A DNA stretch of 64,000 nucleotides, taken from contig JAJZAK010000010.1 in NCBI GenBank assembly GCA_021799485.1, positions 1-64,000 on the forward strand, read 5' to 3'. Positions 14,211 through 45,255 of the stretch are shown here, in pieces. Both the position numbers and the translations under genes were made by a program. Position 1 is the stretch's first letter. Every line of letters begins with the position of its first letter. The stretch is from a bacterium. Its GTDB lineage: Bacteria; Elusimicrobiota; Elusimicrobia; UBA1565; UBA9628. A model generated the notes under the pieces. It was not told where the DNA came from and ran no database searches. It saw nothing but the letters and a program-made list of their open reading frames with translations.

Positions 14211-14215
14211 TTTGG

Positions 14216-25476: not shown

Positions 25477-27396
25477 ATGTGCGGCATCTGCGGCGTCTTC
25501 GGACTCGGCCCCGTCCTGGACGATCGCGACGGCGCGACAGCGAGACGCATGGCCGCGATGCTCCGCCATCGCGGGCCGGACGGCGAGGGCTTTCTTTCCG
25601 ATCCCCATGGCGTCCTCGGGAACACGCGGCTGCGCATCACCGATCTTTCCGCGAACGGCGACCTCCCCATGTCCGATCCCGAAGGAAACGTCTGGCTGAG
25701 CTATAACGGGGAGATCACTAATTTCATCGCGCTTCAAGAGCGCTTCGACCTCGGCCGCAAATACGCCTTCCGCTCCTCCTCGGACGCGGAGGTCCTGCTC
25801 TATCTTTACAAGGAAATGGGATTGGATCTGCTGCGGCATGTGACGGGCATGTTCGCCTTCAGCCTGTATGACCGAAAGGCCGGCCGCGCTTATATCGTCA
25901 GGGATTTCTTCGGCCTGCGGCCGGTCTTTTACGCCGTCCATGGACGAAGGCTCTTCTTCGCCTCGGAAATCAAGGCCCTGCTCGAGATCCCGGACCTGCC
26001 ACGCGAAATCGACCATGAAGCCTTTTTCCATTATTTTTCATTGGCCTACATCCCCGGCAACAAGACTCCCTTCTCCGTCATCCGCGAGTTGGAAGCCGGA
26101 CGTCTCATCGAGGTTGACGTCAGGAAGGGAGAATGGAAAGAGCGGGAGTATTATCGCCTTCGCTACGACCAGGACCCGGCCTTGGGAGAACGGGAGGCGG
26201 CGTCCCGCCTGCGCGAACTCATCCGCGATTCGGTCCGGCGCAACCTGCGCGCGGACAAACCCGTCGGGCTGACCCTCTCGGGCGGCGTGGACACCGGATC
26301 GATCCTCGGCATGGCCCGGGAACTCGGCGCTTCCAAGAATCTCCACACCTTCTCGATTGCGATGTCGGAGCCCAGCTTCGACGAGTCCCGATACCAGCGG
26401 ACGCTCGTCGATTTCGCGCGCCCCGTCCATCACGAGATCGTCGTCCGGCCCCGGGACGTTCTGCCGCATCTCGAGCGCCATATCGCCTTCATGGACGAGC
26501 CGACGGGCGACGGCGCGGCCATCCCCCTCTATCTGCTCGCCCAGGAAGCCAAGAAGCATGTCTCGGTCCTCCTCTCGGGCGAGGGAGGCGATGAGGTCTT
26601 CAACGCCTATGAGACCCACCGGGCCTACAAGCTGCGCAAGCTCTACCGGACTTGGGCGCCGGGCGCTCTCCGCCGGGCAATCCGGGCCCTCGCCCGCCTG
26701 TTGCCCGTCTCGCACAAAAAACTCAGCCTCGATTTCCTGCTCAAGCGCTTCACGGAAGGCGCGGAAAAGGGCACGGCGGCCTCGCACCTCTATTGGCGGC
26801 ACGCTTGGTCCGAGGATGACAAGAGGGACTTGATGCCCGGCGGCGGCTTTCAAGGAACCGATCGGCTCCTCTCGGACGCCTTCGATCGCCTCGACTTCGA
26901 CGACGATCTCAACCGGCTCTCCTGGCTCGACATCAAGCACTATTTCGTCGACGATCTGATGGTGAAGAATGATCGAATGATCTCGGCTCACTCGCTGGAA
27001 GGACGCTACCCCTACATGGACCGGCCGCTGGTGGAATTCGCCGCCACGATCCCCGTGCCGCTCAAGCTGCGCGGACTCGAAGGCCGGCATATCCAAAAGA
27101 AGGCCCTCGCAGGCTGTTTGCCTCCCGAGATACTCAGGCGCAAGAACATGGGCCTGGAGATGCCTTATTCCCCCTGGTTCATGGACGGTTTCAGGGCCGC
27201 GGCCTCGCGCTATTTTTCTAGGGAAACCGTCGAGAAAACGGGATTCCTAAAATTCGACGCGGTGGAAAGGCTCTGGCGGGAGCATCTGTCCCGCAAGAGA
27301 GACCACGGCCGGGCTCTCTGGACGATGCTGAACTTCCTCGTCTGGTTCGACCTCTTCGTCGACCGGGGAAACTACAAGCGCCATTTGTCCTACTAA
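25477..27396 (+). CDS. asnB: Asparagine synthase (glutamine-hydrolysing)-type amidotransferase
   Basis: A 639-residue two-domain enzyme. The N-terminal class II glutaminase domain begins MCGICGVFG with catalytic Cys2 and includes RHRGPDGEGF and the ammonia channel region LSYNGEI. The C-terminal ATP-pyrophosphatase domain begins about residue 240 and has SGGVDTGS (about 267) and GEGGDEVF. The P-loop has threonine where most family members have SGGVDSS. Many such proteins in polysaccharide or exosortase loci amidate sugars rather than make free asparagine; given the membrane glycosyltransferases upstream, that is possible here. Overlaps the convergent SGNH fragment by 4 bp. Confidence 0.9.
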   Translation: MCGICGVFGLGPVLDDRDGATARRMAAMLRHRGPDGEGFLSDPHGVLGNTRLRITDLSANGDLPMSDPEGNVWLSYNGEITNFIALQERFDLGRKYAFRSSSDAEVLLYLYKEMGLDLLRHVTGMFAFSLYDRKAGRAYIVRDFFGLRPVFYAVHGRRLFFASEIKALLEIPDLPREIDHEAFFHYFSLAYIPGNKTPFSVIRELEAGRLIEVDVRKGEWKEREYYRLRYDQDPALGEREAASRLRELIRDSVRRNLRADKPVGLTLSGGVDTGSILGMARELGASKNLHTFSIAMSEPSFDESRYQRTLVDFARPVHHEIVVRPRDVLPHLERHIAFMDEPTGDGAAIPLYLLAQEAKKHVSVLLSGEGGDEVFNAYETHRAYKLRKLYRTWAPGALRRAIRALARLLPVSHKKLSLDFLLKRFTEGAEKGTAASHLYWRHAWSEDDKRDLMPGGGFQGTDRLLSDAFDRLDFDDDLNRLSWLDIKHYFVDDLMVKNDRMISAHSLEGRYPYMDRPLVEFAATIPVPLKLRGLEGRHIQKKALAGCLPPEILRRKNMGLEMPYSPWFMDGFRAAASRYFSRETVEKTGFLKFDAVERLWREHLSRKRDHGRALWTMLNFLVWFDLFVDRGNYKRHLSY

Positions 27397-28097
27397 GGCA
27401 GCCGCGGGCTCAGGAGCTTGGCGAGAGTTTTGGCGTACCATCGGTAAACGCGCGGCCCGGGATGAATCAGTCGGTATTCGACCGGAGCCTGGGGCGGCAG
27501 GGCGCCTTGAAGATCCACGCAAGGAGCCCCGAATTCCTTGAGCGAGCGACAATCCTTTCCCGCTGGATTCGACATAAGAAGGACGGCAAGCCGCCCATGC
27601 CGCCGGGCATAGAAGCGCCGGAACGCCTCCACGTTCAGCGTCTTGTCGATCTTCGCATTGATGCCGTCCTCATAGCTCATGGATCGCAGCCAGTCCGCGA
27701 TCGCAAGGATGTCGTTCGCGGCGATGACCGCCAAACGATAAAGCCGCCAAGAAGAGATGAGGGCCAGCCCCGCGGGACGGCTCCCCAAGGGCAGGAAATA
27801 GAGGTTTTCCGCGAATAGACGCGGATCGGCCCTGAAAAACGGCCGCGGGTCCGCGCCCTTCAGAAAAGCCCTCCGGCCCGTATTGGTGACGGTGAAGATG
27901 AGCATATCGGGGTTAAGCTGTGAGATCGCCTCCTCGGCCGCGGCGACGTCCTGAGCCACGACATAGGCGCTGGTTCCGGCGTTCCAGACCTCGAATCGAC
28001 GCGCTCCCTTCCTGTTCAACTCGGTCTCGAGCAAGGCGGGGTAGGTCTTTATGAGGAGGCCAACCGCAGCCAAAGCCGCCGGGGCTTTCGTGGCGGC
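27393..28097 (-). pseudogene. Truncated SGNH/GDSL hydrolase lacking the catalytic serine block
   Basis: This frame continues directly, in the same reading frame, after the TAG stop of the upstream SGNH gene. The first possible start is TTG at 28073, giving 226 residues. The sequence from YPALLETELNRKGARRFEVWNAG matches the second conserved block of SGNH hydrolases (usually some 30 residues after the GDS block), and the end has IHPGPRVYRWYAKTLAKLL, a degenerate DxxH block with the aspartate missing. The GDSxT nucleophile block has no room to exist. I read it as a remnant of a tandem SGNH gene whose 5' end was lost. It could still be made by readthrough or reinitiation. Confidence 0.6.
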
Positions 28098-29657
28098 CTA
28101 GATCGAGGCATCGTCGCGACGCCCGCAGACGGTCTCGATTTTCCCTGTCATCTCGCCGGGAACGCCTGCGTCCCGAAGCTTTTTTAGTATTTCAGGCATC
28201 TCCGTCTTTGAGGGGTGGTATCCGGAATATCCTAAATGGAGTCGCTCAAGAAAATCGAGATTGGATGGGTCGGCCATAAAGCCGCAGCCCTGGGCCGCCG
28301 TCGCGAGTCCCAGACCGATCCAACCAGAGCAACTGTTCGGGTCGAGGCTCAAAGCCAGCGAAAACCGACGGCGAGCCAGTTCCACCCTCTCGGAAGGCGC
28401 GTAGTGGCCGGCCGAAACGCTCAGGAGCCAGCGTCCGGCGTCGCGGAGCGCCGCGGCGCGCGCTTCCCTCGAAAACCCCAGACGCCGGAACAAGTCCCGC
28501 GCGCTCTTGAAAGGCCGATACGAGGTTCCCGGAAAACGATTCGCAAGCGTTTCCGAATAGGCATTCGCCAAAAGGGCATACCCAGCGGCGTTCGGATGAT
28601 GCCCATCCGAAAACAAATTATTTCCAATCAGGCCATGGGGGGAGTGCTCGCGGAAAATCGCCGCCGCATCCACCAGCGGGACATGTTCGATCCTCGCCAG
28701 GGCGCGCAGATAATCGTTCTGCCGGCTCGTCGCGCAATGATAGTTGTCCCCATATTCAAGATTGCGCGTCTCGCGAAAAAGACGCTCCGCCTTTCGATAC
28801 CGGCCCAGACGGCTTTCGCATCGCCCCAATCGAAAATCCAAGAAGGGGCGAAGGCGCGAAACGAATCCCACTTGATCGGCATAGAAACGCATCGCCTCCG
28901 CGTAACGCCCCTCCGCCTCCAAGGCCCAACCTTCGCGAAGGATCGCGCAGGCTTCCTTTCCCGTGAGCTTCGAATCAACGCCCAAGGCGGGCCCCATGCC
29001 CGCCCGATTGCCGACGACCGTCGACACGATCGGCACAAGCCCTGCGTCGAGGGACATCGCAACGATCCGGCGCATATTGAGTTCGTACCAGCGCAGACTC
29101 CAAACGCCCAACACGGGCCGCAGGGACGGCGCGTAGTTTTCCGCGTAGAACAAAAGATCCGTCAACAGCCAAGATCGGAATACAAAAAGCTCCTCCAAGC
29201 GCTCTTTCAGGGTAAGGGCGCGCGGGGCTCCGTCGTCGTTGTGCCCCGTATAGACCAGGACGGCGCCCGGGACACCGGAAAAACGAAGGCGGATCTCGTG
29301 ACTGAGCGCCACCGCCTGCGGAAAGACGCTTTCACTGCGCCTGGAGCGATCGACGACGACGATGCGGCGCCCGCCGACGCGCCCGCCCAATTCGTCGTCG
29401 ACGAGGCTGGCCAGCGCCATTGGGGAGCCGTAAGGCTCTCCCGCCGCGGTCGATTCCCCGACGCCGTAGAGCTCGAAGGAATCGGCTGCGGGCCGGCGGT
29501 GGAAGAGCCGCCTTGCGGCCCAAAGCGCGCGCCATCCCAGTTCGGCCGACACGGCCGAGAGGAGCAGAAGGCCCAACGCGATCGCGCCCCGGATGAACAG
29601 CGTCCGCGTCCGAAACTTTTTACCGCGCGGCTTGGCCGGGCGTCGACGGCGCCTCAC
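28098..29657 (-). CDS. Membrane-anchored SGNH/GDSL-family hydrolase
   Basis: A 519-residue protein with a very basic N-terminus and one membrane segment (about residues 24-43, LFIRGAIALGLLLLSAV), then an SGNH hydrolase domain outside the membrane. Conserved blocks: YGVGESTAAGEPYG (serine of block I in a GES form), VYTGHNDDG (block III asparagine) and FSDGHHPNAAGYALLA (block V Asp and His). An insertion with TPR-like helices (GRYRKAERLFRETRNLEYG) interrupts the domain. Such enzymes add or remove acetyl groups on surface glycans. GTG at 29657 is the start. Same strand as the radical SAM array and 25 bases downstream of it. Confidence 0.82.
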   Translation of the reverse strand: MRRRRRPAKPRGKKFRTRTLFIRGAIALGLLLLSAVSAELGWRALWAARRLFHRRPAADSFELYGVGESTAAGEPYGSPMALASLVDDELGGRVGGRRIVVVDRSRRSESVFPQAVALSHEIRLRFSGVPGAVLVYTGHNDDGAPRALTLKERLEELFVFRSWLLTDLLFYAENYAPSLRPVLGVWSLRWYELNMRRIVAMSLDAGLVPIVSTVVGNRAGMGPALGVDSKLTGKEACAILREGWALEAEGRYAEAMRFYADQVGFVSRLRPFLDFRLGRCESRLGRYRKAERLFRETRNLEYGDNYHCATSRQNDYLRALARIEHVPLVDAAAIFREHSPHGLIGNNLFSDGHHPNAAGYALLANAYSETLANRFPGTSYRPFKSARDLFRRLGFSREARAAALRDAGRWLLSVSAGHYAPSERVELARRRFSLALSLDPNSCSGWIGLGLATAAQGCGFMADPSNLDFLERLHLGYSGYHPSKTEMPEILKKLRDAGVPGEMTGKIETVCGRRDDASI

Positions 29658-29682
29658 GACGATCGCCGCCTCGAGGGGTCGA

Positions 29683-30897
29683 TCACCCCATCAAACCCGC
29701 CAACTCGGGGAATATCTCGCGGAAACTCTCGCCGCGGTCTTCGTCAAGCCGCAGCGTCTTCGCGCGAAATCGCAGCAGGAGGTCCTCCTTTTCCTCGGCG
29801 CGCAGGAAGCGAAGGGCGCCCTCGAACGCCTCGATGGGCCGGACCGCCCTTTCGCCCCAGCGGCGGCGAAGCCGCTCCACATGCTCTCCATATTTTCTCT
29901 CCACGTCCGTTTTATAGTTTCCCGGCAGGATGTTGATCCGGTATTCCTCGGGGCGAAGCAGCATGTTCAGATGAAAGTCCTCCGGCTCCGAGAGGCCCGC
30001 TTCAAGCCATTCCCCATGGAAATCCGGAAGATGCAGGGCGTTCATGACGCAAAGCGTCGGCGAAAGCAGGAATTTCGCCTGCGGGCATTCCTTCATCATG
30101 CGGCGACGGTTTTCCACCGTTCTCTCCCAACGCTGCCCCTTTCTCAGGTATTCCCCGCGTCGCCCGGAGCCGTCAAGGCTCGCCGCCACGCTGACATCGT
30201 GGAACCGCGCCCACAGCCGCAACACGTCGTCGTCGCCCAAGGACGTCTGAGAAAAATTCGTGCTGTATCGAAGCCGCACGTGAAAGAGGCCTCGCCGCGA
30301 CAAGGCGTCAAGAAGGCGGTAATGCTCCTTCATGATCAGCGGCTCTCCGCCGGCAAAATAGACCTCCTCCAATTCCGCCAAATGCGGCTCGATCTGCCGC
30401 CACAGGCTCTCCGGGTCGTCGCTCGGACGCAACGCCTTGCGGGCGCCCGAGCCCGGGCTTTCCGCATACCAGGCGGTGCTGAGCCACGGGCCGCATATTC
30501 TGCAGCGGAAATTGCATTCGTTGGAAAACCGTATATCCAAATAGACGAGACGGAATGAATCGACGCTTCCGTCCGGGTTGGTCGCCGACGCGCGCGAACG
30601 GTGCGCGGCGTAGTCCTTGTTCGCCCGCAGGCGGGCGCTAAAAAGTCCGGAACGCTCCCATTCGTAGCAATCGGCGCAATAAGGGCTGGGGCGCCCCGAC
30701 AGCATGTCGTTGCGCAGCCGGCGCATGCCAGGAGAATTCCAAATTTCCTTGAGATCCTGCCGGCGCATGTCGCCAAGCGGCTCCTTATTCCCGAAGGAAG
30801 CGCAGCACGGATATACTCGGCCGTCCGGCTGTACGGCAAGATGCGACCATGGAAGCACGCAGAAAACACCGTTGTCTTGCGGGGTCTTATCCGGCAT
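29683..30897 (-). CDS. Twitch-domain radical SAM protein A
   Basis: A 404-residue protein with the auxiliary-cluster domain placed first. Residues 13-77 carry FCVLPW, YPCC, EIWNS and SPYCADCYEWE, the N-terminal twitch/SPASM-like cysteines. The radical SAM core follows with CNFRCRIC (C128, C132, C135), the FAGGEPLI loop and the diagnostic LDGSGRRGEYLRKG. This matches the family that databases name twitch domain-containing radical SAM protein; its substrate is not established. It overlaps the next upstream gene by 11 bp. Closely related modules are at 30887 and twice in 34098. Confidence 0.9.
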   Translation of the reverse strand: MPDKTPQDNGVFCVLPWSHLAVQPDGRVYPCCASFGNKEPLGDMRRQDLKEIWNSPGMRRLRNDMLSGRPSPYCADCYEWERSGLFSARLRANKDYAAHRSRASATNPDGSVDSFRLVYLDIRFSNECNFRCRICGPWLSTAWYAESPGSGARKALRPSDDPESLWRQIEPHLAELEEVYFAGGEPLIMKEHYRLLDALSRRGLFHVRLRYSTNFSQTSLGDDDVLRLWARFHDVSVAASLDGSGRRGEYLRKGQRWERTVENRRRMMKECPQAKFLLSPTLCVMNALHLPDFHGEWLEAGLSEPEDFHLNMLLRPEEYRINILPGNYKTDVERKYGEHVERLRRRWGERAVRPIEAFEGALRFLRAEEKEDLLLRFRAKTLRLDEDRGESFREIFPELAGLMG

Positions 30898-32488
30898 GGG
30901 ACGCCGCGGCCGAGCGATCCGGCCTAGTGTCCTGGGCCGCCATCTCCGCCAATTCCGGAAAGACGTCCCAGAAGCGCTCGCCTCTCAAGGCGTCCAGGCT
31001 CTCCGTCACCTCGCGAAATCGCGGTATGAGCGCCGACAAATCGCGCTTCATCATATAGTTCGCCGCGGATCGGAAAGAGCGGATATCCCGCTCCGCGAGC
31101 TCTCCGAATTCGGCGCGCATGTACTCGATATGCCGCTCATATTTCTCCGCGACCGTCGCCTTCAAACGCGGCGGCAATATCTGTATGCGGTACTCCGCCG
31201 GTCCCACCAGGAACCCCACGTTGCAGTCGCCTGGAGGGCGGATATAGCGTTTCTCGAGCCATTCCCTATGGAAATCGGGAAGGGCGAAGGAGTTGAGAAC
31301 GGTGAGAGTGGGCGAGATGGCGAAATCCACATGCGGGCAGGCCTTCTGAAGATTTTCCCTGTCGGCGACGACCTGATCCCACTTCTGTCCATGACGGATG
31401 TACTCGCCGCGCCTGCCGGAGGCGTCCAGGCTGGCCGTGACCGTTACTTTCCCGAATCGATTCCACAACCCGAAGACATCCTCGCCGCCAAGCCGCGTTC
31501 CAGAGAAGTTTGTCGAGTAGGTGAGATGGACGCCGAAGCATCGCCGCTCGATGAGGCGGCGCAAAAGCGCATAATGCCAGCGCATGATCAAGGGCTCTCC
31601 TCCCGCGAAATGGATTCTTCGGAGATGCGGGAAGAGCGGCTCGAACTCGCGCAGCAAGCCGTCCAAATCATCCCTCGCGGCCAAGAGGCGGGGATGCCCG
31701 GGGTCTCCCCAAAGCCGCCGATAGTCCCCATACCATCGGGTGCTTCTCTCGGAGTGGCAATAGCGGCAGGCGAAGTTGCACTCGTTGGATAGATTGAGCT
31801 CCAGGGTCAAAAGCCTGAACGGCTCGACGCTCCCGTCCGGCTTGGTCGCGCGGACCACGTCGAAATGCCCCGCAAGGCCCTTGTTATGCTCCAGGCGCAT
31901 GCTGTGGACGTCGGCGTCCTCCAGTTCGTAGCACGCCTGGCAGTGGGGGCTCTTGCGGCCCGCCAGCATGTTGCGGCGAAGCTGGCGCATGTCGGAGCCG
32001 TTCCAAATATCGAGCAAGGACTCCCTCTTAACATTCCCTGTCTCTTCCGTGGACCGGGCTTGGCAGCAGGGCAGAGCGCGGCCGTCCTGGTGGATGATCA
32101 TCGCCGTCCAAGGAAGCATGCAGAACGTCTTGGAATCCTTCAAAAGCTCGTCGCGTCGGGAGGCGATATCCTTGCAATCGGCTTCTTCCCGAGCGCGCTC
32201 GGCGCCGGCTCCCTCTGGTGATTGCGGCGCCGTTCTGGTCGAGCCCTCTTCGTCCGCCGCATCATGCGGCAAGTCTTGTATCTCGCGCCAAGCTCGAGCG
32301 AATTCCTCGCCGCTCAGGCCGCACTCGAGAGCCGTTTGAAGCATCCCGAGAGCGCGATGGCGCTCCGACGCCATCGCGCGCAGTTTCGCCATCTCAAGCC
32401 AAATGCGGGCATTGCCGGGGTCGAGCCTGGCCTCTGCGGCCAAGCGAGCGAAGTCCTCCTCGCGCTTGGAGGGCCTCATGCTCGACAT
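30887..32488 (-). CDS. Twitch-domain radical SAM protein B with N-terminal TPR
   Basis: A 533-residue protein. Residues 1-75 are a TPR-like helical unit (LDPGNARIWLEMAKL; TALECGLSGEEFARAWREI). A disordered linker follows, then the N-twitch region (FCMLPW about 122, LPCC, DIWNGSDMRQLRRNML, CQACYELE) and the radical SAM core CNFACRYC (C237, C241, C244) with FAGGEPLI and LDASGRRGEYIRHG. It is strikingly similar, TPR included, to the C-terminal half of the 34098 protein, so the two arose by duplication. ATG at 32488 overlaps the upstream gene by 13 bp. Confidence 0.9.
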   Translation of the reverse strand: MSSMRPSKREEDFARLAAEARLDPGNARIWLEMAKLRAMASERHRALGMLQTALECGLSGEEFARAWREIQDLPHDAADEEGSTRTAPQSPEGAGAERAREEADCKDIASRRDELLKDSKTFCMLPWTAMIIHQDGRALPCCQARSTEETGNVKRESLLDIWNGSDMRQLRRNMLAGRKSPHCQACYELEDADVHSMRLEHNKGLAGHFDVVRATKPDGSVEPFRLLTLELNLSNECNFACRYCHSERSTRWYGDYRRLWGDPGHPRLLAARDDLDGLLREFEPLFPHLRRIHFAGGEPLIMRWHYALLRRLIERRCFGVHLTYSTNFSGTRLGGEDVFGLWNRFGKVTVTASLDASGRRGEYIRHGQKWDQVVADRENLQKACPHVDFAISPTLTVLNSFALPDFHREWLEKRYIRPPGDCNVGFLVGPAEYRIQILPPRLKATVAEKYERHIEYMRAEFGELAERDIRSFRSAANYMMKRDLSALIPRFREVTESLDALRGERFWDVFPELAEMAAQDTRPDRSAAASHAG

Positions 32489-37000: not shown

Positions 37001-37418
37001 TGCTCAATTCCGGACGGCAGGTCCTGCATTTGAAATTGCAAAGATTCGAAAAGCGGATGTCCAAGTAAGGCAAGGCGAACTCGGGCACCGTGCCGTCCGG
37101 CCGCGTCGTCTCGACGCGGCTTAAATAATGGGCGTACTCGCGATTCGTCCTTGTTCTGAGGCTGAGGGCTCCGCTTTGTTCGGCGAGGTAGCAACGGGAA
37201 CATGCCGGGCTTTGTTTGTCTTCAAGCATTCGCAGGCGCAATTCCCTCATGCCGGAAGAGTTCCAAATCTGGGAAAGCGGCGTCGCTTTCATATTGCCCA
37301 CCGGGAATCCCCATGAGACGCAGCACGGGAACACATCTCCCTTCGTGTCGCTTCCCATGCCGACCCATGGCATGAGGCAGAAGGCGCGCGACCCTTTTAC
37401 CAGTTCCTCTGTTTTCAT
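34098..37418 (-). CDS. Giant tandem radical SAM protein: twitch-rSAM, TPR, twitch-rSAM
   Basis: A 1106-residue protein with two complete modules. Module 1 (about 1-405): FCLMPW at 13, PCC at 31, CSRCYLAE at 73, radical SAM motif CNFKCRTC (C127, C131, C134), FAGGEPLL, LDASGRRGEYLRKG. A TPR region (about 415-650) follows with repeats such as GRPTEALEAFQKALEIDP and GRLEAALADYEKSF. Module 2 (about 690-1106): FCMLPW at 701, LPCC, CLTCYELED, CNFACRYC (C816, C820, C823), FSGGEPLI, LDASGRRGEYIRHG. All cluster cysteines are present in both, so both should be active. Module 2 with its preceding TPR resembles the 30887 protein more than it resembles module 1. ATG at 37418 starts shortly before FCLMPW. 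Confidence 0.92.
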   Translation of the reverse strand: MKTEELVKGSRAFCLMPWVGMGSDTKGDVFPCCVSWGFPVGNMKATPLSQIWNSSGMRELRLRMLEDKQSPACSRCYLAEQSGALSLRTRTNREYAHYLSRVETTRPDGTVPEFALPYLDIRFSNLCNFKCRTCRPELSSAWHRDAAALGWEVGESALVSAYSQSQDLWGQLEKLLPGIEEIYFAGGEPLLMDEHLRFLELLISKRRFDVRLLYSTNFSVLSHRGVDLAGLWDQFKSVEIVASLDASGRRGEYLRKGMVWDQILLNRERLARGCPRAYFHINATVSALNAWHLPDFHLEALAKKWVEPGKFHLNLLFDPEEYRIQALPGDFKEKIRDKYEAHCRRLAETGADLPAAKDFAAAARYLFTEDRSAAFPRLLEKTRRLDALRGENVVEVFPELAPLFGGKERGAGEIAPMDNTTLFWLARQYRDAGKVREALEHFKDLLSRPRERGDWGAVYFFYGDFLRDIGRPTEALEAFQKALEIDPAGAESRRIRRRLSDICLERIERIKAMLEARELKPAEEAILEILRCYRQLDEDRALAAVVYFELGNVHYAQGRLEAALADYEKSFAAGPGLSQAGVRRGQVYAEVLDFYSKEAARNPDNARIWLQMAWLHSQLGQLDSARKALQMALDCGLSGEEMASAWRDIDRSRAQAPGGGGLIAKAPEPRVCLGNAPDQEGIDARDIGSRRDELLMRSKTFCMLPWTAMVIQQNGQVLPCCQARPTENTGNARAATLEEIWNGPDLRQLRRNMLAGRKSPQCLTCYELEDSHVHSRRMESNKIYARHFGRACFTKPDGGVLAFRLLKLELNLSNECNFACRYCCPERSARWYAEHLRLWGPPDEGRRLQKARSDLNGLLDELDPLLPHLQRIHFSGGEPLISRWHYALLRRLVERRLQDVKITYTTNFSETRTADGDAFELWRQFRDVGVLASLDASGRRGEYIRHGQKWDQVVRNREKLRMMSPHVHFDMGPTLSVFNSFALPDLHREWLEKRYIRPPSDCHISFLMAPGNYRIQILPGHLKDQVAEKYERHIRYLHAEYGALAEQGIQAFRSAIDYMRRRDLTALLPRFRQVTASLDHSRGQRFEAVFPELAELMSEAHLVESL

Positions 37419-37449
37419 TTGGCCAACGCGCTCTCAAAGCGCGGGAAGG

Positions 37450-38853
37450 TCAGGACCAGTACCACTCCATGTGATGCTTCCAGGTCTCCATCAGGGCGCC
37501 CGAGAGGCAGAACTTCCGGCAAATCCCGCCGAAGCGACGCTCCGCGATGCCCAGGCGCACCCGCTGCATGGGAAGACCATTCCAGATCTCCATGATGGAG
37601 TTCTCGTCGACATTGCCGATATAGCGCTCGCCGCAATGCCAATTCGGAAGAACCCCGCCGCCGTTCCTTAAAATCAGGTTCTTCCAGGGCGAAAGGCAAA
37701 AAGACGAATATTCGGGCCCCGTGAAGCGCGCGCCGTCCTCGACCGACATCGGCATCAAGGAGAAGCGCTTCTCATGCTCCGCCTCGTCGAGGGAGTGGTT
37801 CTGGTCCTCGGGGCCGGGAGGAGGAGGCAGGTTGTCTTCCAAATAGATGCCGTAATCGAGACAGCGCTGCCTGGCCTCGGCCCTCTGGGCCTCCACGTCT
37901 CGCGCGATTTTCTCCTGGCTGTAATTGAAAATGTCGATTTTGCGGTAGAGATCCCCTTCCATGGGGCTCAACGCCACGCCGTCAAAGCCATGAGCCCTCG
38001 CGAACTCGATCATGTCGACGATCTGGTGGTAATTGAGCCGCTGCACCACCATGTGGATCCAAAAGCCGATGCGGCGGCTCCGCCGCGCCATCTCGTTATT
38101 CAAGTTATCGATGGACTTCAGGATCTTCTCGAAGCTCGCCAGCACCCGGATTTTCTCGAACACCTCGGGCGTCGCCCCGTCGATCGAGATTTTCATGTGG
38201 ACGTTCAGGCTCACCAGAATCTCCGCCCAGCGCTTGTCGATATGCTGGCCGTTCGTGATGAAATTCTGCAGCATCCGGGGATAGTCGCGTCCCCGGAGGA
38301 GAATGCCTTCGAGGACGGCCCGATCCATCTCGAAGGGCTCCCCGCCCTGCCACAGGATGTCCTCCAGGTAAGGATAAAGCGCCGCGACCTCGTCGAGCGT
38401 TTTCCTCGACATGTCCCACGGCTTCTCCTTCCAGAACGTGCACATGATGCAGTGGACCGAGCATCGGCTCGTGGGCCGGATCGTCAGCCGCGTGGGAAAG
38501 GAATCGAGCTTAATCTTGCCTTCGCTGGCCTCCCTTTCGTTAAGAAGCAGATTTTGGATGAAGGGCTCCCCACTCTGTCCGAATTTCCGCTCCATCGCGC
38601 GCAGCGCCGCCCAGGCCTCCTCCTGTTTGCCGAAGCGGCGCAGGGACTGCAGAACAAGGAGCCGCATGCGCAAATCCTTATGTTCGGGGAGCGCCCCCGT
38701 CGAGAGGCACTTCTGCAGCTCGTCGACGGTCCTGGGATAGTCGTTGTTGAGATAATGCCGCCGGGCATTTCGCTCATGGATCCGCGCTGCTTCCTCGGGA
38801 GAAGAACGCGGCGGCGCGACGGATCCGGCCTCGACGCCGGATCCTGAAATCAT
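37450..38853 (-). CDS. Radical SAM/SPASM protein with N-terminal TPR-like region
   Basis: A 467-residue protein. Residues 20-110 are helical and TPR-like (HYLNNDYPRTVDELQKCL). The radical SAM motif is CSVHCIMC (C131, C135, C138), followed by LWQGGEPFEMD (the GGEP loop) and KISIDGATPEVFEKIR, typical of the SPASM group. The C-terminus has FCLSPWKNLILRNGGGVLP, NWHCGERYIGN, IWNGLPMQRVR and CRKFCLSG, a classic SPASM domain for auxiliary clusters. ATG at 38853 overlaps the upstream stop (ATGA). Related proteins modify peptides (for example anSME-like, sactionine or epimerase enzymes); substrate unknown. Confidence 0.88.
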   Translation of the reverse strand: MISGSGVEAGSVAPPRSSPEEAARIHERNARRHYLNNDYPRTVDELQKCLSTGALPEHKDLRMRLLVLQSLRRFGKQEEAWAALRAMERKFGQSGEPFIQNLLLNEREASEGKIKLDSFPTRLTIRPTSRCSVHCIMCTFWKEKPWDMSRKTLDEVAALYPYLEDILWQGGEPFEMDRAVLEGILLRGRDYPRMLQNFITNGQHIDKRWAEILVSLNVHMKISIDGATPEVFEKIRVLASFEKILKSIDNLNNEMARRSRRIGFWIHMVVQRLNYHQIVDMIEFARAHGFDGVALSPMEGDLYRKIDIFNYSQEKIARDVEAQRAEARQRCLDYGIYLEDNLPPPPGPEDQNHSLDEAEHEKRFSLMPMSVEDGARFTGPEYSSFCLSPWKNLILRNGGGVLPNWHCGERYIGNVDENSIMEIWNGLPMQRVRLGIAERRFGGICRKFCLSGALMETWKHHMEWYWS

Positions 38854-39380
38854 CCGTTTCTCCCCATGATCACCCCGCCGGCAGCGGTCTCCCATCCCAG
38901 ATGCCTATAAAGCATGTCGATCGCCGGCCCTAGAAACGCGCGGAAAGGGGCGGCCATATCCCTCGCGAATTCGACGTTTTCGACGGCGAGATGCCGCGCG
39001 TGCTCGACAGCCCGCCGCGGATCCAGCGGGTCGAACCAGAACCCTCCGCAGCGCGAGCCCCCGCCCGGAAGCTGCAAAAAGCCCGAGCGCGGCGCGTTTT
39101 TGTCCATGACGACAAAAACGGGAAGGCTGGGCCGGACATTCCTCACGAAACTCATTTCCATATTGACGAAATAGAGGCTCTCCCCGCCGGCCATGGCCCA
39201 CACGAGGAAGAGATCGGAGGCCAAGATCGCCTCCCTGACGGCGGGCGGCATGGACGTCTTGGGCTCCCATGGCCGCGGCGCCATGAACAGCTCCACGCCC
39301 GACTCGACTCCGGTCTCCGCCAGCCTCTCGAGGAGCCGGCCGTCTCCCTCGGCGACGCTTCGGCTCAGATAGACTTTCAC
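38850..39380 (-). CDS. TIR-like or nucleoside deoxyribosyltransferase-like Rossmann protein
   Basis: A 176-residue protein starting with GTG at 39380: VKVYLSRSVAEGDGRLLERL. The pattern of strand, helix, ELFMAPRPW, then AVREAILASDLFLVWAM and SLYFVNMEMSFVRN with LPVFVVMDKNAP, resembles TIR or nucleoside 2-deoxyribosyltransferase-like domains; the glutamate in VNMEMSFVRN sits where such enzymes place a conserved acidic residue. If it has that fold, it might cleave NAD or a nucleoside, or serve as a scaffold. It lies between two radical SAM genes with an ATGA overlap downstream. The family call is tentative. Confidence 0.5.
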   Translation of the reverse strand: MKVYLSRSVAEGDGRLLERLAETGVESGVELFMAPRPWEPKTSMPPAVREAILASDLFLVWAMAGGESLYFVNMEMSFVRNVRPSLPVFVVMDKNAPRSGFLQLPGGGSRCGGFWFDPLDPRRAVEHARHLAVENVEFARDMAAPFRAFLGPAIDMLYRHLGWETAAGGVIMGRNG

Positions 39381-39391
39381 GGCTCCGCGCC

Positions 39392-40501
39392 TCAACCGGC
39401 CGCGGGGACGACATCCTTCTTTTCGACCCCCACCCAATGCCTCAGCCACCTCTCCTCTTCCCCGACGATCATGCTCTTCCAGCAGGAACAGGCCGGAAAT
39501 TCGCAGATCTTCGGCTCATCATAGAGCTTGAACGTCCCGTCGATGAGATTCCCCATCATTCCGCGCTCGTCAGGATCGAGGAAGCAGCAGCGCAGGGCGT
39601 TGCCGTCCGGATGGATCTTCGCGTACATCTGCCCCGCCCGGCAGTTCGCCGCGCGGCGCGTGTGATTCTCGCCCCCCTGATTGGCGCCTTTATACCAATT
39701 GCCGTAATCTTCCGACAGCACGGGATTGCCGCTGAGCCCGTTGATGAAGCGGCGCTGCTCGGGGGCATAGGCGTCCGGATAATCCTTGCCTTTAAAGCGC
39801 CCCCGAAAAGGAATGAGGGTCAGCACGACGCCGATGTCCTCGTAAGCCTTTTTGAACTCGGGGATTCGATCGAGATGGGGGGGCCAACAAATATAGTTGA
39901 CGCCCTGGAGGTCGAAACCCGCCTCCCGCAGCCGACGACATTTCTCGACGTGCGTTTTGAGGTCCGCGAACTCGGGATGGAACGAGGGAGAGAACCGGAA
40001 GGAGCCGGGCTTCACCTTGGCGATGAACTCCCTGATATCGAACGACAGGTTCGTATCACACTCCATCGTATGCTTCTCCATGACGTGGGCCAGGATGTCG
40101 ATGAAGCGCGGGTAATAGAACGGCTCGCCCCCCGAACAATGGATATGCGCGCTGCCGTAGCGGTCGTAAATCCCGTCCCAAATCTCCATCCATTTCTCGG
40201 CGGGAATCGGCGCGCGGCTTTTCTTGCTGAGGACCGAATCCCATTGAGGGCTCTCGAAAATGATGCAATACGTGCATCGGTAGTTGCAGACGTAGCTGAT
40301 GTCCCAAGTGAAGAAGACGCGATAAGGCGGCGTCAGCTGGCGCTGCGGTACGGCAGCAACGACATGGTCCAACCCGCCTTCCATGGCGGGGAAACCTGAA
40401 AGACCGACGAAGGAGACGTTTCCCGCGCGGCTTACGCCCGAGTGCCCGTCCCCACATCCGCTGCCGCAGCCCGACCCGCAACCGCCCCCGCATCCACCCA
40501 T
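39392..40501 (-). CDS. Radical SAM protein with Gly-Cys repeat N-terminus
   Basis: A 369-residue protein whose first 19 residues are nearly only Gly and Cys with cysteines at 4, 8, 12 and 16 (CX3 spacing). The radical SAM motif is CNYRCTYC (C72, C76, C79); CSGGEPFYYP follows; the C-terminus has NCRAGQMYAKIHPDG, LRCCFLD and CEFPACSCWKSM, a short SPASM-like auxiliary region. A strong ribosome binding site AAGGAGG sits 5 bases ahead of ATG 40501, so the Cys-rich start is real. The tail could carry an extra metal cluster or be a modification target. The gene overlaps the preceding small ORF by 70 bp. Substrate unknown. Confidence 0.88.
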   Translation of the reverse strand: MGGCGGGCGSGCGSGCGDGHSGVSRAGNVSFVGLSGFPAMEGGLDHVVAAVPQRQLTPPYRVFFTWDISYVCNYRCTYCIIFESPQWDSVLSKKSRAPIPAEKWMEIWDGIYDRYGSAHIHCSGGEPFYYPRFIDILAHVMEKHTMECDTNLSFDIREFIAKVKPGSFRFSPSFHPEFADLKTHVEKCRRLREAGFDLQGVNYICWPPHLDRIPEFKKAYEDIGVVLTLIPFRGRFKGKDYPDAYAPEQRRFINGLSGNPVLSEDYGNWYKGANQGGENHTRRAANCRAGQMYAKIHPDGNALRCCFLDPDERGMMGNLIDGTFKLYDEPKICEFPACSCWKSMIVGEEERWLRHWVGVEKKDVVPAAG

Positions 40502-40881
40502 GTTCCCTCCTTAAATACCCCCCTCGAGCCGCCGGCGACGATCGCGAAGCCGAGCCCGCCCTTGCCGTCGTCGAGCGCCTCGACTTCCAACCCAAGAACC
40601 GTCCTTTTTTGTCCTGGCGAAAACGGCAGCTGGTTGAGCCTGAAGAGCCCCACGCACGCGGGCGCGCCCGCCACGATGGTCGTGGGCTTCGCGATCGCCT
40701 CGACGGCCGATCGTTGGGCCGCGCTTGGGTCGCTCCTGCTCAAGCAAATGATGTCCGCCGCGCGGCCCCGCCGAACCTTCTCGGAGGGATCGACGTAGAC
40801 GCAGACGCCCTTCCATTCAAAGCAGCATCCCCCGATCCCAGCGGGGATGATTTCCGGATTCGCAGGCCCCGGCTTTCTCAT
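40432..40881 (-). CDS. Small protein resembling a degenerate UlaG-type metallo-beta-lactamase fold
   Basis: A 149-residue protein; ATG at 40881 overlaps the TGA of the upstream radical SAM gene. The layout GIGGCCFEWKGVCVYVDPSE, then ADIICLSRSDPSAAQRSAVE, then VAGAPACVGLF and LPFSPGQKRTVLGLEVEAL recalls UlaG/YycJ-like beta-lactamase-fold proteins (phosphate-strand IDP, HxHxDH region, basis strand). However, the HxHxDH metal site is replaced by SRSDPSA, so hydrolase activity is unlikely. It may be a binding or structural partner of the radical SAM enzymes. The last 23 codons overlap the next gene in another frame. Family assignment is inference. Confidence 0.5.
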   Translation of the reverse strand: MRKPGPANPEIIPAGIGGCCFEWKGVCVYVDPSEKVRRGRAADIICLSRSDPSAAQRSAVEAIAKPTTIVAGAPACVGLFRLNQLPFSPGQKRTVLGLEVEALDDGKGGLGFAIVAGGSRGVFKEGTWVDAGAVAGRAAAADVGTGTRA

Positions 40882-41966
40882 GGAGCGAGGACCTCCGCCT
40901 TCGCCTGCCAGACGGGGTGATCGGCCGACTGCCAAAGCATGCCGACCTTCTCCTCATAGCGGCCGGAGACCATCGGTTTCCAGCAGGAGCAGGCGACCAC
41001 CGTGCAGGGCCTGGGCTCGTCGTAAAGCTTGAGATTCTCGTCCGTAATATGGCCCAGAATGTCGACGCCCGTGTGGCAGCAGCGCCGCACGGTGCCGTCG
41101 GAGTAGATCTTGGCGTAAAGCTCGCCCATGTGGCAGGGGATGCCCAGGAAATTCTTGTCGTCGGGCTTGGCGTTCGCGTAGTCCTGCCATTGCTTGTTCA
41201 AGGTCTTGCCGAGTTCGTCCTTGGACTTCTCGACCTGCATCCCGAGGATCCGCCTCTCGTCGTCCGTGTAGGCCATGGGATAGCGCTTGCCCTCGTAGAC
41301 GCCGTTGAACGGGATGATTTTAAAGAGAACGCGCTCTTTCTCGAACATCTCTCGAATGGGTTCCACCCGATGGAGCGTCGGAGGATACGCGACCAGGGAG
41401 GCCGAGATGAGCTGGTTGCCGCGATCCCGCAAGATCAGGAGCTTCTTGAGGAACTCCCCGGGCTCGACGTGGTCCAGGTGAAGGCTCCCCGAGATGGCAA
41501 TGCCCTGGGCCGGGACCTTCTTGATCCATTCCTCGACGTCGAAGCTGAGATTCGTCGTGATGTCGACGGTATGCATCTCGAGGATCATGGCGACAAGATT
41601 GATGAAGTCCGGGTAGATGGTGGGCTCGCCGCCGGCGAAGCGGACCTGGCAGCAACCGTAGAGCTTGAACATCCGGCCCCAAATCTTGCGCCATTCCTCG
41701 ACCGGCAACGTCAAAAACGAGGCGCTTTCGTTATGCACGACGCAATAGCGGCAACGGTAGTTGCAGGGAAGAATGATCTCCCAATTCCAATGAACCTTAT
41801 AGGGGGGGGCGCGTCGCGGCAGAAGGGGCTTGTAATCCTCGAGCCGGTGAGGAATCGCGTAATCCAATTCCCCACGCGCGGCGAGGTCTCCCTCCGCGAC
41901 GAAAGGGGCCGCTTCATGCTCTTTGGAGCCGCAACCCGAGCAGGATCCCGTCGAACAATTTCCCAT
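40878..41966 (-). CDS. Radical SAM/SPASM-like protein with Cys-rich N-terminus
   Basis: A 362-residue protein. N-terminus MGNCSTGSCSGCGSKE has cysteines at 4, 9 and 12. The radical SAM motif CNYRCRYC (C68, C72, C75) is followed by FAGGEPTIYP. C-terminus: CHMGELYAKIYSDGTVRRCC and CTVVACSCWKPMVSG, the same auxiliary-cluster region as in the 39392 protein, its closest relative here. Two bases separate it from the upstream stop. ATG at 41966 lies next to a weak purine-rich stretch. Substrate unknown. Confidence 0.88.
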   Translation of the reverse strand: MGNCSTGSCSGCGSKEHEAAPFVAEGDLAARGELDYAIPHRLEDYKPLLPRRAPPYKVHWNWEIILPCNYRCRYCVVHNESASFLTLPVEEWRKIWGRMFKLYGCCQVRFAGGEPTIYPDFINLVAMILEMHTVDITTNLSFDVEEWIKKVPAQGIAISGSLHLDHVEPGEFLKKLLILRDRGNQLISASLVAYPPTLHRVEPIREMFEKERVLFKIIPFNGVYEGKRYPMAYTDDERRILGMQVEKSKDELGKTLNKQWQDYANAKPDDKNFLGIPCHMGELYAKIYSDGTVRRCCHTGVDILGHITDENLKLYDEPRPCTVVACSCWKPMVSGRYEEKVGMLWQSADHPVWQAKAEVLAP

Positions 41967-41968
41967 GT

Positions 41969-43357
41969 TTAAATGACCGCAACCTCTTGAGGCGGCAAAC
42001 TGAAGACCCTTTCCTTAATAGGGATCTCCCGAGCGCCGCACCAATTCCGCAACGTTTCGATTCGTCCGGCGACAGTGGTCGCGTCGGCGCCCGGGGCGCC
42101 GGACGGCGAAACCTTCCTCGCGGCGGCTTCTAGGACGTAGGGATTCGCCACGACCCCGCTCAAGGAGCCTCTGAGAGCCTCCAGCCACTTCATGGTCGCC
42201 TGGAACTCGGATGGAGATTCTTGGGGATGGCCGACGATCATGGAAGCCCAGGCGTTGATTCCGCTCATGCGCGTGTCTTTGATCACCCGCTCGGCCAGGG
42301 AGGGAGTATAAGGCGGGCGGCCCATGAAGTCAAGAAGGGCCGGAGATGCGCTCTCGATTCCGTAGACGATCTCCTTGCAACCCGAGCGGGACATTATATC
42401 AAGTAACCCAGGTTCCATTTCGGGGCGCACGACGGCGTTCATACTCCAGGTCATGCCTGCTTGAGACAGACCATGTTCCATCGACAGTTCGGCGAAGCGC
42501 TTCAAGGTCTCGGGCCTCCCGTTCGCGACGATATCGTAAAACGCGACATGCCTCCACGCGGGCTGATGGCTCAAGGCGCGAGCGACATCCCCGAAGATGC
42601 GGTCTCCGCTTTTAAAGGAATAGCGGGGCCAATAGCTTCGCGAGGAACAAAACCGGCAGGACCACGGACAGCCGCGGGACGACGACATCGGCATCTGGAC
42701 CGGATTCTCGTAGGCGAGGACGTTGGGGAACCCGGAGAAATCGAGAGGGGGCGAGAGGTCAAGATCGAAGGTGAAGGGAACGGGACGGGGACCGCGATTC
42801 CAGCCGTTGCCGTTTCGCACCCAGACTCCGGGCAGGGCCATCCAACGACGGGTTGCCCCCATCAGGCCCAGAAGCTTCACGACGACATCCTCCCCCGCCC
42901 CCGACACGACGACGTCCGGCAGGCCCCCGGGCCCGAGCGCGGCCGCGGCGGTCTCTTCGAAGTCGGAGAAATACTCCCCCCCCATGACGATCCCCAGGCG
43001 AGGAGAGATCCCCCGGAGCCTCTCCGCCATGTCCAGACTTGAGTTCTGGGCTCCGGCGTGCACCGAGAACAACGCGACATCCGGCTCGCAGGCGGCGATT
43101 TTCGCGGCGAAGCGGTCGAGTTCCGCGGAATGCTCCTCGCAGAAATTCCGAGCCCAGACCGCGTCGTTCCATGAGGCCCAATGCTCCCATGCCCAGTCCG
43201 TCTTGCGGGACGACGGCGCCTCCGCCCAGAGAGCGATATTGAGATCGAAAACCTTGAATTCGATATTGGCGTGCCAAAGACAGCCCGCAAGCTGGGCCAG
43301 GGCCAAGGGCGGGTCCGCGACCCCCCAGACGGGACATTGGATGATGGCGACTTTCAT
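41969..43357 (-). CDS. B12-binding-domain radical SAM protein
   Basis: A 462-residue protein. The N-terminal Rossmann domain (MKVAIIQCPVWGVADPPLALAQ to about residue 170; IVMGGEYFSDFEE, VVSGAGEDVVVKLL) is of the cobalamin-binding type without a DxHxxG motif. The core has CPWSCRFC (C230, C234, C237) and EIVYGIESASPALLDFM. Similar in architecture to the 32476 protein, with 25-30 percent-looking similarity by eye in the core, but without the TPR. ATG at 43357 overlaps the stop of the first gene of the array (ATGA). Confidence 0.88.
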   Translation of the reverse strand: MKVAIIQCPVWGVADPPLALAQLAGCLWHANIEFKVFDLNIALWAEAPSSRKTDWAWEHWASWNDAVWARNFCEEHSAELDRFAAKIAACEPDVALFSVHAGAQNSSLDMAERLRGISPRLGIVMGGEYFSDFEETAAAALGPGGLPDVVVSGAGEDVVVKLLGLMGATRRWMALPGVWVRNGNGWNRGPRPVPFTFDLDLSPPLDFSGFPNVLAYENPVQMPMSSSRGCPWSCRFCSSRSYWPRYSFKSGDRIFGDVARALSHQPAWRHVAFYDIVANGRPETLKRFAELSMEHGLSQAGMTWSMNAVVRPEMEPGLLDIMSRSGCKEIVYGIESASPALLDFMGRPPYTPSLAERVIKDTRMSGINAWASMIVGHPQESPSEFQATMKWLEALRGSLSGVVANPYVLEAAARKVSPSGAPGADATTVAGRIETLRNWCGAREIPIKERVFSLPPQEVAVI

Positions 43358-44274
43358 TTAGCCCCCTCTTGGGAGAGTGGTGCGCGGGGGGAATAAATCT
43401 CGTCTAAGTACCGGAATTCCAGGCAGCTGCACTTCTCGTAGGGGCAGGGCTCCGGGCGCTCAAAAAGGCCGAAATGCTCGTCGAAGATGTTCCCCAGCGG
43501 CTTGCGGCCGAAGGCGTCCTGTCCGCAACGAAAGACGCTCCCGTCTCCCTTGACGTTGGCGTAAACCCTGCCGGCATGGCAGGGCTTGCCGCGCGTGCCG
43601 TCTCGAAGAAGCCGGTATTTGAACTCGTCTTCTTTCGCGACGCCCGCGTTGCCCATGAGAGACGCGATCACGCGCTTTTGATCATCCTCGAAGGCTTCGG
43701 GATAGTTTTTCCCTTCCCAGCGCCCCTGGAAGACCATCGGGGTAAAAGGCAGGTTCCATTTCTTGAACAGCGCGGCATACTCCGGCATCCTGGCGACCAA
43801 GGGCGGCCAGGTCACGAGAAGAACTCCCGGCTCATAGCCCTTGGAATGAAGCAGCAGAAGCTTCTCAAGGAACTCGTCCGGAGAGGCGAATTGCGGATGA
43901 AAGCTAGCGTTGAGATGAAGCCTCTCGGGCGGCGCCGCCTCCATGAGTTCGCGAATCTTCTCGATCGGAATCGAGAGGTTCGTGGTGATAAGCAGCCGGT
44001 GCAGTCCCGCGAGCCCCCGCCACAGCTCCGACGCCTTCGGGTAGAGAAGAGGCTCCCCGCCCAGCACGTCGAGCCGGGCCTCGCCGTGCCGCTCCCGGAC
44101 CCGCCCCCAGGTCGAAATCCAGTCCTCGGGAGGCAGGATTTTATGGCGCTTCGCGAGGTCGGCCCACAAATCCTCCATCTCCCACCAGCAATAGGAACAG
44201 CGGTAATTGCAGCCGTACCACAAATCCCAGCTCAAGCAAAGGCGCGGCTCATCGAGCCACCAACGATGGGTCAT
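43354..44274 (-). CDS. Radical SAM protein, first gene of the array
   Basis: A 306-residue protein. The motif CNYRCSYC is at C22, C26, C29; LGGEPLLYP follows, and the C-terminus has CHAGRVYANVKGDGSVFRCG and CPYEKCSCLEF for an auxiliary cluster. It belongs with the proteins at 18482, 39392 and 40878. As the most upstream gene of the minus-strand array, its 5' region should hold the main promoter. A weak CTGACA/TAGTCC pair with 16-bp spacing occurs near 44332-44305; nothing stronger is seen. Confidence 0.88.
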   Translation of the reverse strand: MTHRWWLDEPRLCLSWDLWYGCNYRCSYCWWEMEDLWADLAKRHKILPPEDWISTWGRVRERHGEARLDVLGGEPLLYPKASELWRGLAGLHRLLITTNLSIPIEKIRELMEAAPPERLHLNASFHPQFASPDEFLEKLLLLHSKGYEPGVLLVTWPPLVARMPEYAALFKKWNLPFTPMVFQGRWEGKNYPEAFEDDQKRVIASLMGNAGVAKEDEFKYRLLRDGTRGKPCHAGRVYANVKGDGSVFRCGQDAFGRKPLGNIFDEHFGLFERPEPCPYEKCSCLEFRYLDEIYSPRAPLSQEGAK

Positions 44275-44331: not shown

Positions 44332-45255
44332 TCAGCCGTGAACAGCGGCGGCCAGAGGCTCCATGGGCCGCTGCTGGTGGCGGATCTCGCGCCCGCGCAA
44401 GGAATCCTCGATGCGGTCGGGACGGCCCCAGTCGCTCCAACGCACATCCGCCATGGGAAGAACGACGATCCTATGCGGGACGCGCTCGAGAAGCGCTTTC
44501 GAGAAGTCCGTTGTCTCGAGGGCGCCGTAGACGAAAGGCGCGATCGCCTCCTCGTGCCCTTTCCCGATCGCAACGCGCAGGAGGTCGAAGCGGGCGACGG
44601 TCCCCGGGTGGAAGAGCCGGGCGATCTCCCAGAGGGCGCGCGCCTTCGCCGCGACGATCATCGTATTCCAAAGATAACCGTCCGCGAAATATTCCTCCGC
44701 GTCCTGGGCCGATGGCTTCTCCCGAAACAAGCGCACGGAAAAGCTTCGGCCGGTCAAGGCGATTCCAGGTTCGATCCATCCATAATCCGGCTCAGGGCCG
44801 TCCGCAACCGCGCCGAGAAGAACGATCTTGTCCGGGACGAGCGCGGCGGCCCCAAGGGCTTCCTTAAAGATCTCGCGAACTCCCCTCAAGGGTTCCATGA
44901 CATGGTCCGAGGGGAGTACGAGGACATCCGCCCCCGGATCGACGGCCAGGATATGGGCCAAGCCCAAAAGAATGCCGGGGAGAGTCCCGCGGTTGGAATA
45001 CTGCTCGACGATCCGGCCTTTCAAGCGGGTCTTGCCCAGGAAACGGCGGTGTCCTCGGCCGATGACGGTCAGGGTTTTATCGGCCGGAATGACGCCGTCG
45101 AGGCGATCCATCGCGTGCTCTATCATCGTTTTGCCGCCGCCAAAAGAGCAGTACTGCTTGGGAATCGCCTGGCCATACTTCTTCACGACATAGTCGCGCA
45201 GTCGCTCGCCCTCGCCTCCCGCCAGCACCACCGCCCACGTCCCTTGATCGCCCAT
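44332..45255 (-). CDS. Mannose-1-phosphate guanylyltransferase-like nucleotidyltransferase
   Basis: A 307-residue enzyme. The N-terminal nucleotide-binding signature VVLAGGEGERL and KQYCSFGGGKTMIEHAMDRL (PKQY motif) match GDP-mannose pyrophosphorylases; VLVLPSDHVM is the metal-binding aspartate region and FREKPSAQDAEEYF, YLWNTMIV the sugar pocket. It would form an NDP-sugar for glycan synthesis. The length matches the catalytic domain alone, without the usual left-handed helix domain. ATG at 45255 has a fine GAGGAGG site 6 bases upstream; it was preferred to a longer frame. Upstream of the radical SAM array on the same strand, 57 bases apart. Confidence 0.85.
   Translation of the reverse strand: MGDQGTWAVVLAGGEGERLRDYVVKKYGQAIPKQYCSFGGGKTMIEHAMDRLDGVIPADKTLTVIGRGHRRFLGKTRLKGRIVEQYSNRGTLPGILLGLAHILAVDPGADVLVLPSDHVMEPLRGVREIFKEALGAAALVPDKIVLLGAVADGPEPDYGWIEPGIALTGRSFSVRLFREKPSAQDAEEYFADGYLWNTMIVAAKARALWEIARLFHPGTVARFDLLRVAIGKGHEEAIAPFVYGALETTDFSKALLERVPHRIVVLPMADVRWSDWGRPDRIEDSLRGREIRHQQRPMEPLAAAVHG

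Follow-up and report, generated by a model that had tools for sequence, protein, structure and literature searches.

A conserved array of radical SAM genes in Elusimicrobiota and its possible link to a phosphorylated-peptide pathway

The radical SAM operon

The 64,000-nucleotide stretch of DNA analysed here (the window) belongs to the genome of a groundwater-type Elusimicrobiota bacterium (G000; 2.31 Mb in 61 contigs, 90% complete) and carries a minus-strand operon at 29683-44274 with nine genes for radical S-adenosylmethionine (SAM) enzymes. Profile and motif searches identified ten intact CX3CX2C cores, and PF04055 was above cutoff in 9/9 of these genes, in agreement with the initial annotation, which had counted nine mostly overlapping genes and ten cores. 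From 44274 to 29683 the genes are S1, B1, S2, a metallo-beta-lactamase (MBL)-like gene, S3, a TIR-like gene, P1, a double N-twitch gene, B2 and two single N-twitch genes (Table 1). Their junctions measure -4, +2, -4, -70, +11, -4, +31, -1, -4 and -11 nt. Since all are overlaps or gaps of 2-31 nt, the operon has no coding space for a hidden precursor peptide. For the gene at 32476, a start at 34098 is preferred to one at 34452. The whole genome contains 45 PF04055 matches, corresponding to ~0.3 expected per 14.6 kb compared to ten in the operon. The ratios of nonsynonymous to synonymous substitution (dN/dS) against same-genus orthologues are 0.04-0.30, which implies that the operon genes are maintained, including the degenerate MBL-like and the TIR-like gene.

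The sorting of the enzymes into N-twitch, short "CNYRC", B12-binding and SPASM types, proposed from the sequence alone, is upheld by matches to NF033640, PF13186 and B12-binding models and by motifs. The cutoff of NF033640 was exceeded by both single N-twitch genes and twice by the double one, and the short type comprises S1, S2 and S3 and, on the plus strand, S4. The nearest NCBIfam model for the short enzymes is the STM4011 subfamily (NF038073) with 54-80 bits (54.4, 58.0 and 68.7 bits in the window), and none reaches its membership cutoff of 200 bits. S1, S2 and S3 carry a CX9-15GX4C auxiliary-cluster motif after the core. Among 36 sequences, seven of the eight Cys in the motifs CX3CX2C, CX12GX4C and CX4CXC are invariant and one is kept in at least 90%, a pattern that is the signature of a putative twitch/SPASM-type auxiliary cluster. 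The AlphaFold2 (AF2) model of S1 (mean confidence, pLDDT, 91) matches BlsE best in the PDB, followed by SuiB, anSME, MoaA, PqqE, viperin and SpeY, and these neighbours of the predicted structure include enzymes of both sugars and peptides. The predicted B12-binding domains of B1 (below cutoff) and B2 would be compatible with C-methylation. The closest named relatives of S2 are found in metagenome-assembled genomes of Elusimicrobia (94% and 93%), by which the window is placed in Elusimicrobiota. S3 and S2 have Cys/Gly-rich N-terminal tails (MGGCGGGCGSGCGSGCG and MGNCSTGSCSGCGSK, respectively), the former overlapping the MBL-like gene by 70 nt. The S3-type tail is retained in G002 and G006 and the S2-type tail in G001 and G002; both are absent in G021, and the S2 tail also in G012.

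The two proteins embedded among the radical SAM enzymes are encoded by real genes, and the fold assignments made for them initially fared differently. The G006 orthologue of the MBL-like protein keeps THGHEEH and matches PF12706/PF13483 at 1e-13, and by this homology the protein derives from a genuine metallo-beta-lactamase. A TIR identity could not be upheld for the other: its AF2 model is good, but Foldseek gave no match at E<1e-3, and the fold is left as a weak flavodoxin/TIR-like assignment.

Table 1. Genes of the radical SAM array and its surroundings in the window
Feature	Position	Strand	Evidence
S1: short twitch-type radical SAM (STM4011-like), first array gene	43354..44274	-	PF04055 43.7 bits; CX3CX2C, CX12GX4C and CX4CXC; orthologues in 8 relatives
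B1: B12-binding radical SAM (aB2 family)	41969..43357	-	PF04055 59.7 bits; B12-binding 27.4 bits, below cutoff; 39% to L008:8970-10802
S2: short twitch-type radical SAM, Cys/Gly-rich N-terminus	40878..41966	-	Orthogroup spans Elusimicrobiota and Omnitrophota
Degenerate MBL-fold protein, 149 aa	40432..40881	-	G006 orthologue with THGHEEH; dN/dS 0.23
S3: short twitch-type radical SAM, CGxGCGSGC-type N-terminal tail	39392..40501	-	95% identity in G001, dN/dS 0.04; cross-phylum orthogroup
Small alpha/beta protein, TIR/deoxyribosyltransferase-like fold possible, conserved Glu75	38850..39380	-	Alignment; AF2 pLDDT 81
P1: radical SAM, C-terminal SPASM, TPR-like N-terminus	37450..38853	-	PF04055 52.2 bits, PF13186 26.1 bits; orthologues 63-88%
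Double N-twitch radical SAM, halves fused through TPR repeats	34098..37418	-	NF033640 twice, 706.4 bits; PF13186 twice; two CX3CX2C
B2: B12-binding radical SAM, C-terminal TPR	32476..34098	-	PF04055 69.2 bits, PF02310 32.2 bits; TIGR03975 141.6 bits, below cutoff
N-twitch radical SAM	30887..32488	-	NF033640 357.6 bits (cutoff 170)
N-twitch radical SAM, last array gene	29683..30897	-	NF033640 368 bits (cutoff 170)
S4: short radical SAM	18482..19303	+	Tree clade of 15 rows, 100% support; kept inside arrays of other families and Omnitrophota
AsnB-type glutamine amidotransferase, possible associate	25477..27396	+	57% orthologue beside S4 and array in G009; TIGR03108 422 bits, below 816.9 cutoff
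SGNH-like protein downstream of array, possible associate	28098..29657	-	PF13472 2.3e-5, below cutoff; SGNH-like proteins recur in array loci
Sugar nucleotidylyltransferase, 58 bp upstream of array	44332..45309	-	PF00483 69 bits; same position in G001 and G002 only

Conservation of the array

A second array of seven genes and eight cores lies on contig C19 of the same genome (L008: 2690-13806), and both halves are contiguous in G006 (L045). The window operon is therefore one half of a conserved set of ~18 radical enzymes, with up to 24 radical SAM cores in single loci of relatives. The order aB1-aP2-aP3-aB2-aS1-S2-S3-S1/aS2-S4, together with SPASM/TPR copies, recurs as one run in Endomicrobiaceae, other Elusimicrobia and Omnitrophota, and a five-gene core of it in Sumerlaeota. 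The homologues are thus not scattered and unlinked in relatives, which the initial annotation had named as the outcome that would speak against a common pathway. At the threshold used, the array is present in 33/341 Elusimicrobiota genomes and 18/100 genera. Loci with GC-rich sequence in which the self-trained gene caller misframed genes (e.g. L056, L060, L071, L072; parts of G219 and L203) were excluded as negative evidence.

Although STM4011 provides the nearest model for the short enzymes, a tree of 149 STM4011-like domains separates the array proteins from their Myxococcota/Deltaproteobacteria relatives (95% support). Within it, aS1 (24 rows, 100%), S4 (15 rows, 100%) and S2 (13 rows, 98%) form orthogroups that extend across classes and phyla. 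This conservation argues that the array enzymes work as a set, and judged from these sequence relationships the array is ancient and co-inherited. Two more radical SAM clusters of G000 (C51:28613-39740 and C30:15555-23122) have no obvious relation to it.

Genes associated with the array

A single-copy HprK-like kinase occurs in 19/19 near-complete array genomes compared to 18/173 others (p=2e-16) and in 17/18 array genera compared to 11/82 others (p=5e-11), counts that are phylogenetically non-independent, kinship being considered only through the genus test. A matching nucleotidyltransferase accompanies it in 18/19 near-complete array genomes versus 16/173 others, the one array genome lacking it being G245, where the array runs into a contig end. 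Both genes are usually single copy and often adjoin the array: the nucleotidyltransferase lies within ~15 kb in 9/15 genomes, whereas 7/15 have the kinase inside the array or close to it. A discrete PqqD-type recognition element (RRE) for ribosomally synthesized and post-translationally modified peptides (RiPPs) was found in 15/16 array genomes, and a Wzm-type exporter gene adjoins array radical SAM genes in 8/14. Frequently, one protein combines the nucleotidyltransferase with a right-handed beta-helix (PF13229) and, at the N-terminus, a signal-peptidase-I domain; matches in relatives to the archaeal-type signal-peptidase model TIGR02228 reach 8e-12 at best, all below cutoff.

Kinase, nucleotidyltransferase, PqqD, signal-peptidase domain, glycosyltransferases (GT) and an ABC-2 exporter together make up a linked core, to which the array is partially linked. 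In G306 and G309 the operons read Wzm-Wzt-(50 aa)-aS2-aB1-aP1-GT2-HprK, and a satellite locus of G221 reads NTase-GT4-Wzt-Wzm-...-PqqD-GT4-HprK-GT2, where NTase denotes the nucleotidyltransferase. A single 55-kb locus of G012 unites exporter, radical SAM genes, precursor, kinase, GT2/GT4/GT9, PqqD, nucleotidyltransferase and array. Precursor, PqqD, nucleotidyltransferase and array share one contig in G010, and the same four plus the kinase do so in G178. A conserved membrane peptide of 50-59 residues (..LWWLIPM..SSAVVPF[VI]YVLF), which we take to resemble DUF5989, lies beside aS2 (L179:9632-9784, L180:10670-10822, L159 ~6795-6947, L157:11748-11912, L047:10809-10961), and in G245 it adjoins a carbamoyltransferase. 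In three genomes a FabD-like acyltransferase stands beside PqqD, precursor and HprK (L199:7733-8719, tested with PF00698; L200:9131-10042 and L204:3518-4525, called by sequence resemblance), which suggests that some peptide core variants involve an acyl group.

A conserved small precursor gene, the search for which had been proposed with the initial annotation, was found by comparing unannotated small open reading frames (ORFs) across loci. The family has 34-47 residues with the pattern MxxK..KKYxKPx[LIV]xxHGx[LI]... and occurs in 12 relatives, including array genomes, beside or inside PqqD/GT/HprK operons; in G005, G202 and G210 the precursor overlaps the PqqD gene by 4 nt. The strict motif YxKPx[LIV]xxHG had nine matches in 2.5 Mb of six-frame translation, 9/9 of them in PqqD/HprK/nucleotidyltransferase loci. 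In G012 the precursor (L040:8529-8645) lies between an STM4011-like radical SAM gene and HprK. None of the recognised cores contains Cys. The precursors of G011, G035 and G041 (L205, L206, L221) have the identical core HGVLSIVEGD and are possibly a separate subfamily; a B12-type radical SAM gene adjoins in G011 and G041.

The GT39-like, AsnB-like and SGNH-like genes said to flank the operon exist, but GT39, AsnB and the mannose-1-P guanylyltransferase-like gene say little about the pathway. Genomes carry 12-31 PMT_2 genes, which occur near arrays at about chance frequency, and the GT39/PMT genes were dropped as evidence for a glycan because they are plentiful throughout the genome and show no enrichment near arrays. 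One other array (G009) has AsnB in common with the window, and the guanylyltransferase-like gene is shared within the genus only. Elsewhere in the window, a bacterial class A RNase P RNA (14211-14592, minus strand, 157 bits) overlaps the longest ORF at 13245-14480 in its 5' part, and this ORF probably starts best at 14159.

Candidate substrate and proposed pathway

The family of linear polyphosphorylated peptides (LPP), reported from Bacillota only, has a core of signal peptidase I, discrete RRE, HprK, NTP transferase, transporter and a precursor with YxxPxVLxHQ (Popov et al. 2026, PMC13381572). Its authors did not find the final product, and the nucleotidyltransferase was inactive in a heterologous host, a missing partner being suspected (PMC13381572). 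The Elusimicrobiota loci share with LPP a discrete PqqD-type RRE, an HprK-like kinase, an NTP transferase and a glycosyltransferase-rich setting; in relatives of G000 a putative archaeal-type signal peptidase I (matches below cutoff) is added, and the leader YxxPx(V/L/I)..H of their precursors has Tyr, Pro, the aliphatic residue and His in the same register and spacing. They differ in the radical SAM array, no such enzyme being mentioned for LPP, in an ABC-2 exporter near the arrays instead of an MsbA-like transporter, in the frequent fusion of the peptidase domain to beta-helix and nucleotidyltransferase, and in H-G instead of H-Q in the leader. The lasso peptides paeninodin and pseudomycoidin also have PqqD (B1 of lasso systems), an HprK-like kinase, a nucleotidyltransferase and a YxxPxL-type leader, and for pseudomycoidin the kinase phosphorylates Ser before the nucleotidyltransferase adds a hexose to the phosphate (PMC8498205). 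A lasso peptide was nevertheless rejected as product: matches to leader models stay below cutoff, the cores are too short, and the AsnB-type protein of the window, which fits TIGR03108 better, has 227.9 bits against the lasso-cyclase model (cutoff 525). No transglutaminase-like B2 of lasso systems was noticed in the loci read, although no dedicated search was made.

We propose, at a probability of roughly 0.45, that the window operon makes up one half of the tailoring module in an LPP-related (glycosylated) ribosomal-peptide pathway, in which the array probably decorates an exported peptide-linked molecule with unusually many radical modifications. In the reactions, order and substrate that we infer, the precursor would be bound through its YxKPx[LIV]xxHG leader by the PqqD-type recognition protein, the HprK-like kinase would phosphorylate Ser/Thr of the short core, and nucleotidyltransferase and GT2/GT4/GT9 glycosyltransferases would build on the core phosphate. 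The array, with its SPASM, N-twitch, twitch and B12 types, would then introduce successive C-H modifications into the peptide-sugar intermediate, B12-dependent C-methylations among them. The leader would be removed by the archaeal-type signal-peptidase domain and the product moved out by the Wzm/Wzt-type exporter. Since most cores have ~10-13 residues, we think that part of the array enzymes act on the attached sugars. A bolder version, which we regard as rather doubtful, has a short LPP-like peptide act in Elusimicrobiota and Omnitrophota as the phosphorylated primer of a glycan, which would be assembled on it, decorated by 18-24 dedicated radical SAM enzymes and then exported. The "heavily modified peptide or surface glycan" of the initial annotation pointed to the right neighbourhood, because the array co-occurs with RiPP machinery that includes a precursor and in relatives adjoins it, as well as glycosyltransferases and an ABC exporter of the polysaccharide type; the window itself holds half of the enzymes and no peptide core genes.

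Several observations weigh against this proposal. The cores are too short for 18-24 radical SAM enzymes each acting on the peptide, and the co-occurrence counts share ancestry as stated above. In G000 the kinase (C47:12270-13253), the nucleotidyltransferase (C3:1136-2725) and PqqD (C6:6845-7045; PF05402 2.9e-20) lie on contigs other than the window's; no precursor was found in ~0.9 Mb and no signal-peptidase motif in 0.87 Mb scanned of its 2.31 Mb. Among the array loci read, those of Endomicrobia and Omnitrophota yielded no recognisable precursor. The peptide core genes are also found where there is no array, which the peptide pathway can therefore do without.

The enzymes might instead modify sugars of an exported surface polysaccharide, with the peptide core as an uninvolved neighbour. 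The size of the peptide would favour this, as would the same-strand runs of array radical SAM genes with Wzm/Wzt, GT2, GT4, GT9, a YdjC deacetylase and a carbamoyltransferase, and SPASM/twitch enzymes acting on sugars are known, BlsE and SpeY being among the structural matches of S1. We consider it unlikely, although it is the strongest competitor, given that HprK is present in every near-complete array genome and PqqD in nearly all array genomes, that the G012 precursor lies between an array-type enzyme and the kinase, and that PMT/GT39 genes are not enriched at arrays. Less probable still is an ordinary, very large maturation cluster acting on peptide only, with further unrecognised precursors: SPASM, PqqD, signal peptidase I and precursor are RiPP hallmarks, and the structural neighbours of S1 include SuiB, anSME and PqqE, but the window operon offers no room for a precursor gene, and the known cores are short and without Cys.

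Two further explanations carry very little weight. A loose collection of unrelated paralogues from tandem duplication would agree with their number and widely variable copy number, and is very improbable in view of strong purifying selection and of distinct orthogroups, some of them supported at 98-100%, whose order is kept from class to class and phylum to phylum. Meheust and co-workers reportedly described, in 2020, clusters of nitrogenase paralogues and radical SAM genes in groundwater Elusimicrobia that were proposed to act on a tetrapyrrole. That the array belongs to them appears even less credible: they share the phylum, the many radical SAM genes and some genomes (GWA2_66_18, GWA2_69_24), but their distribution and location are independent of the array. 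In G000, G001, G002, G006, G009 and G014 the array is present and PF00148 has no match above cutoff, several relatives show the reverse, with many PF00148 copies and no array, and nearly all genomes with both carry them on different contigs. Up to 18 matches to this nitrogenase-component-1 family per genome were seen in G010, G011, G012, G017, G028, G030 and other relatives.

To our knowledge, none of the pathways described so far gathers as many radical SAM enzymes in a single locus, where the arrays reach 24 cores. With the link to HprK, nucleotidyltransferase, PqqD, signal peptidase and a YxxP precursor, a substrate hypothesis that can be tested becomes available for the first time for the N-twitch and short twitch-type enzymes of the array. 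If the LPP-related pathway is true, the LPP family extends from Bacillota to Elusimicrobiota, and the arrays are candidates for its missing modification steps. The core of the pathway would then be of an already known kind and its product possibly novel, and a peptide-primed glycoconjugate, if true, would be unlike any described biopolymer.

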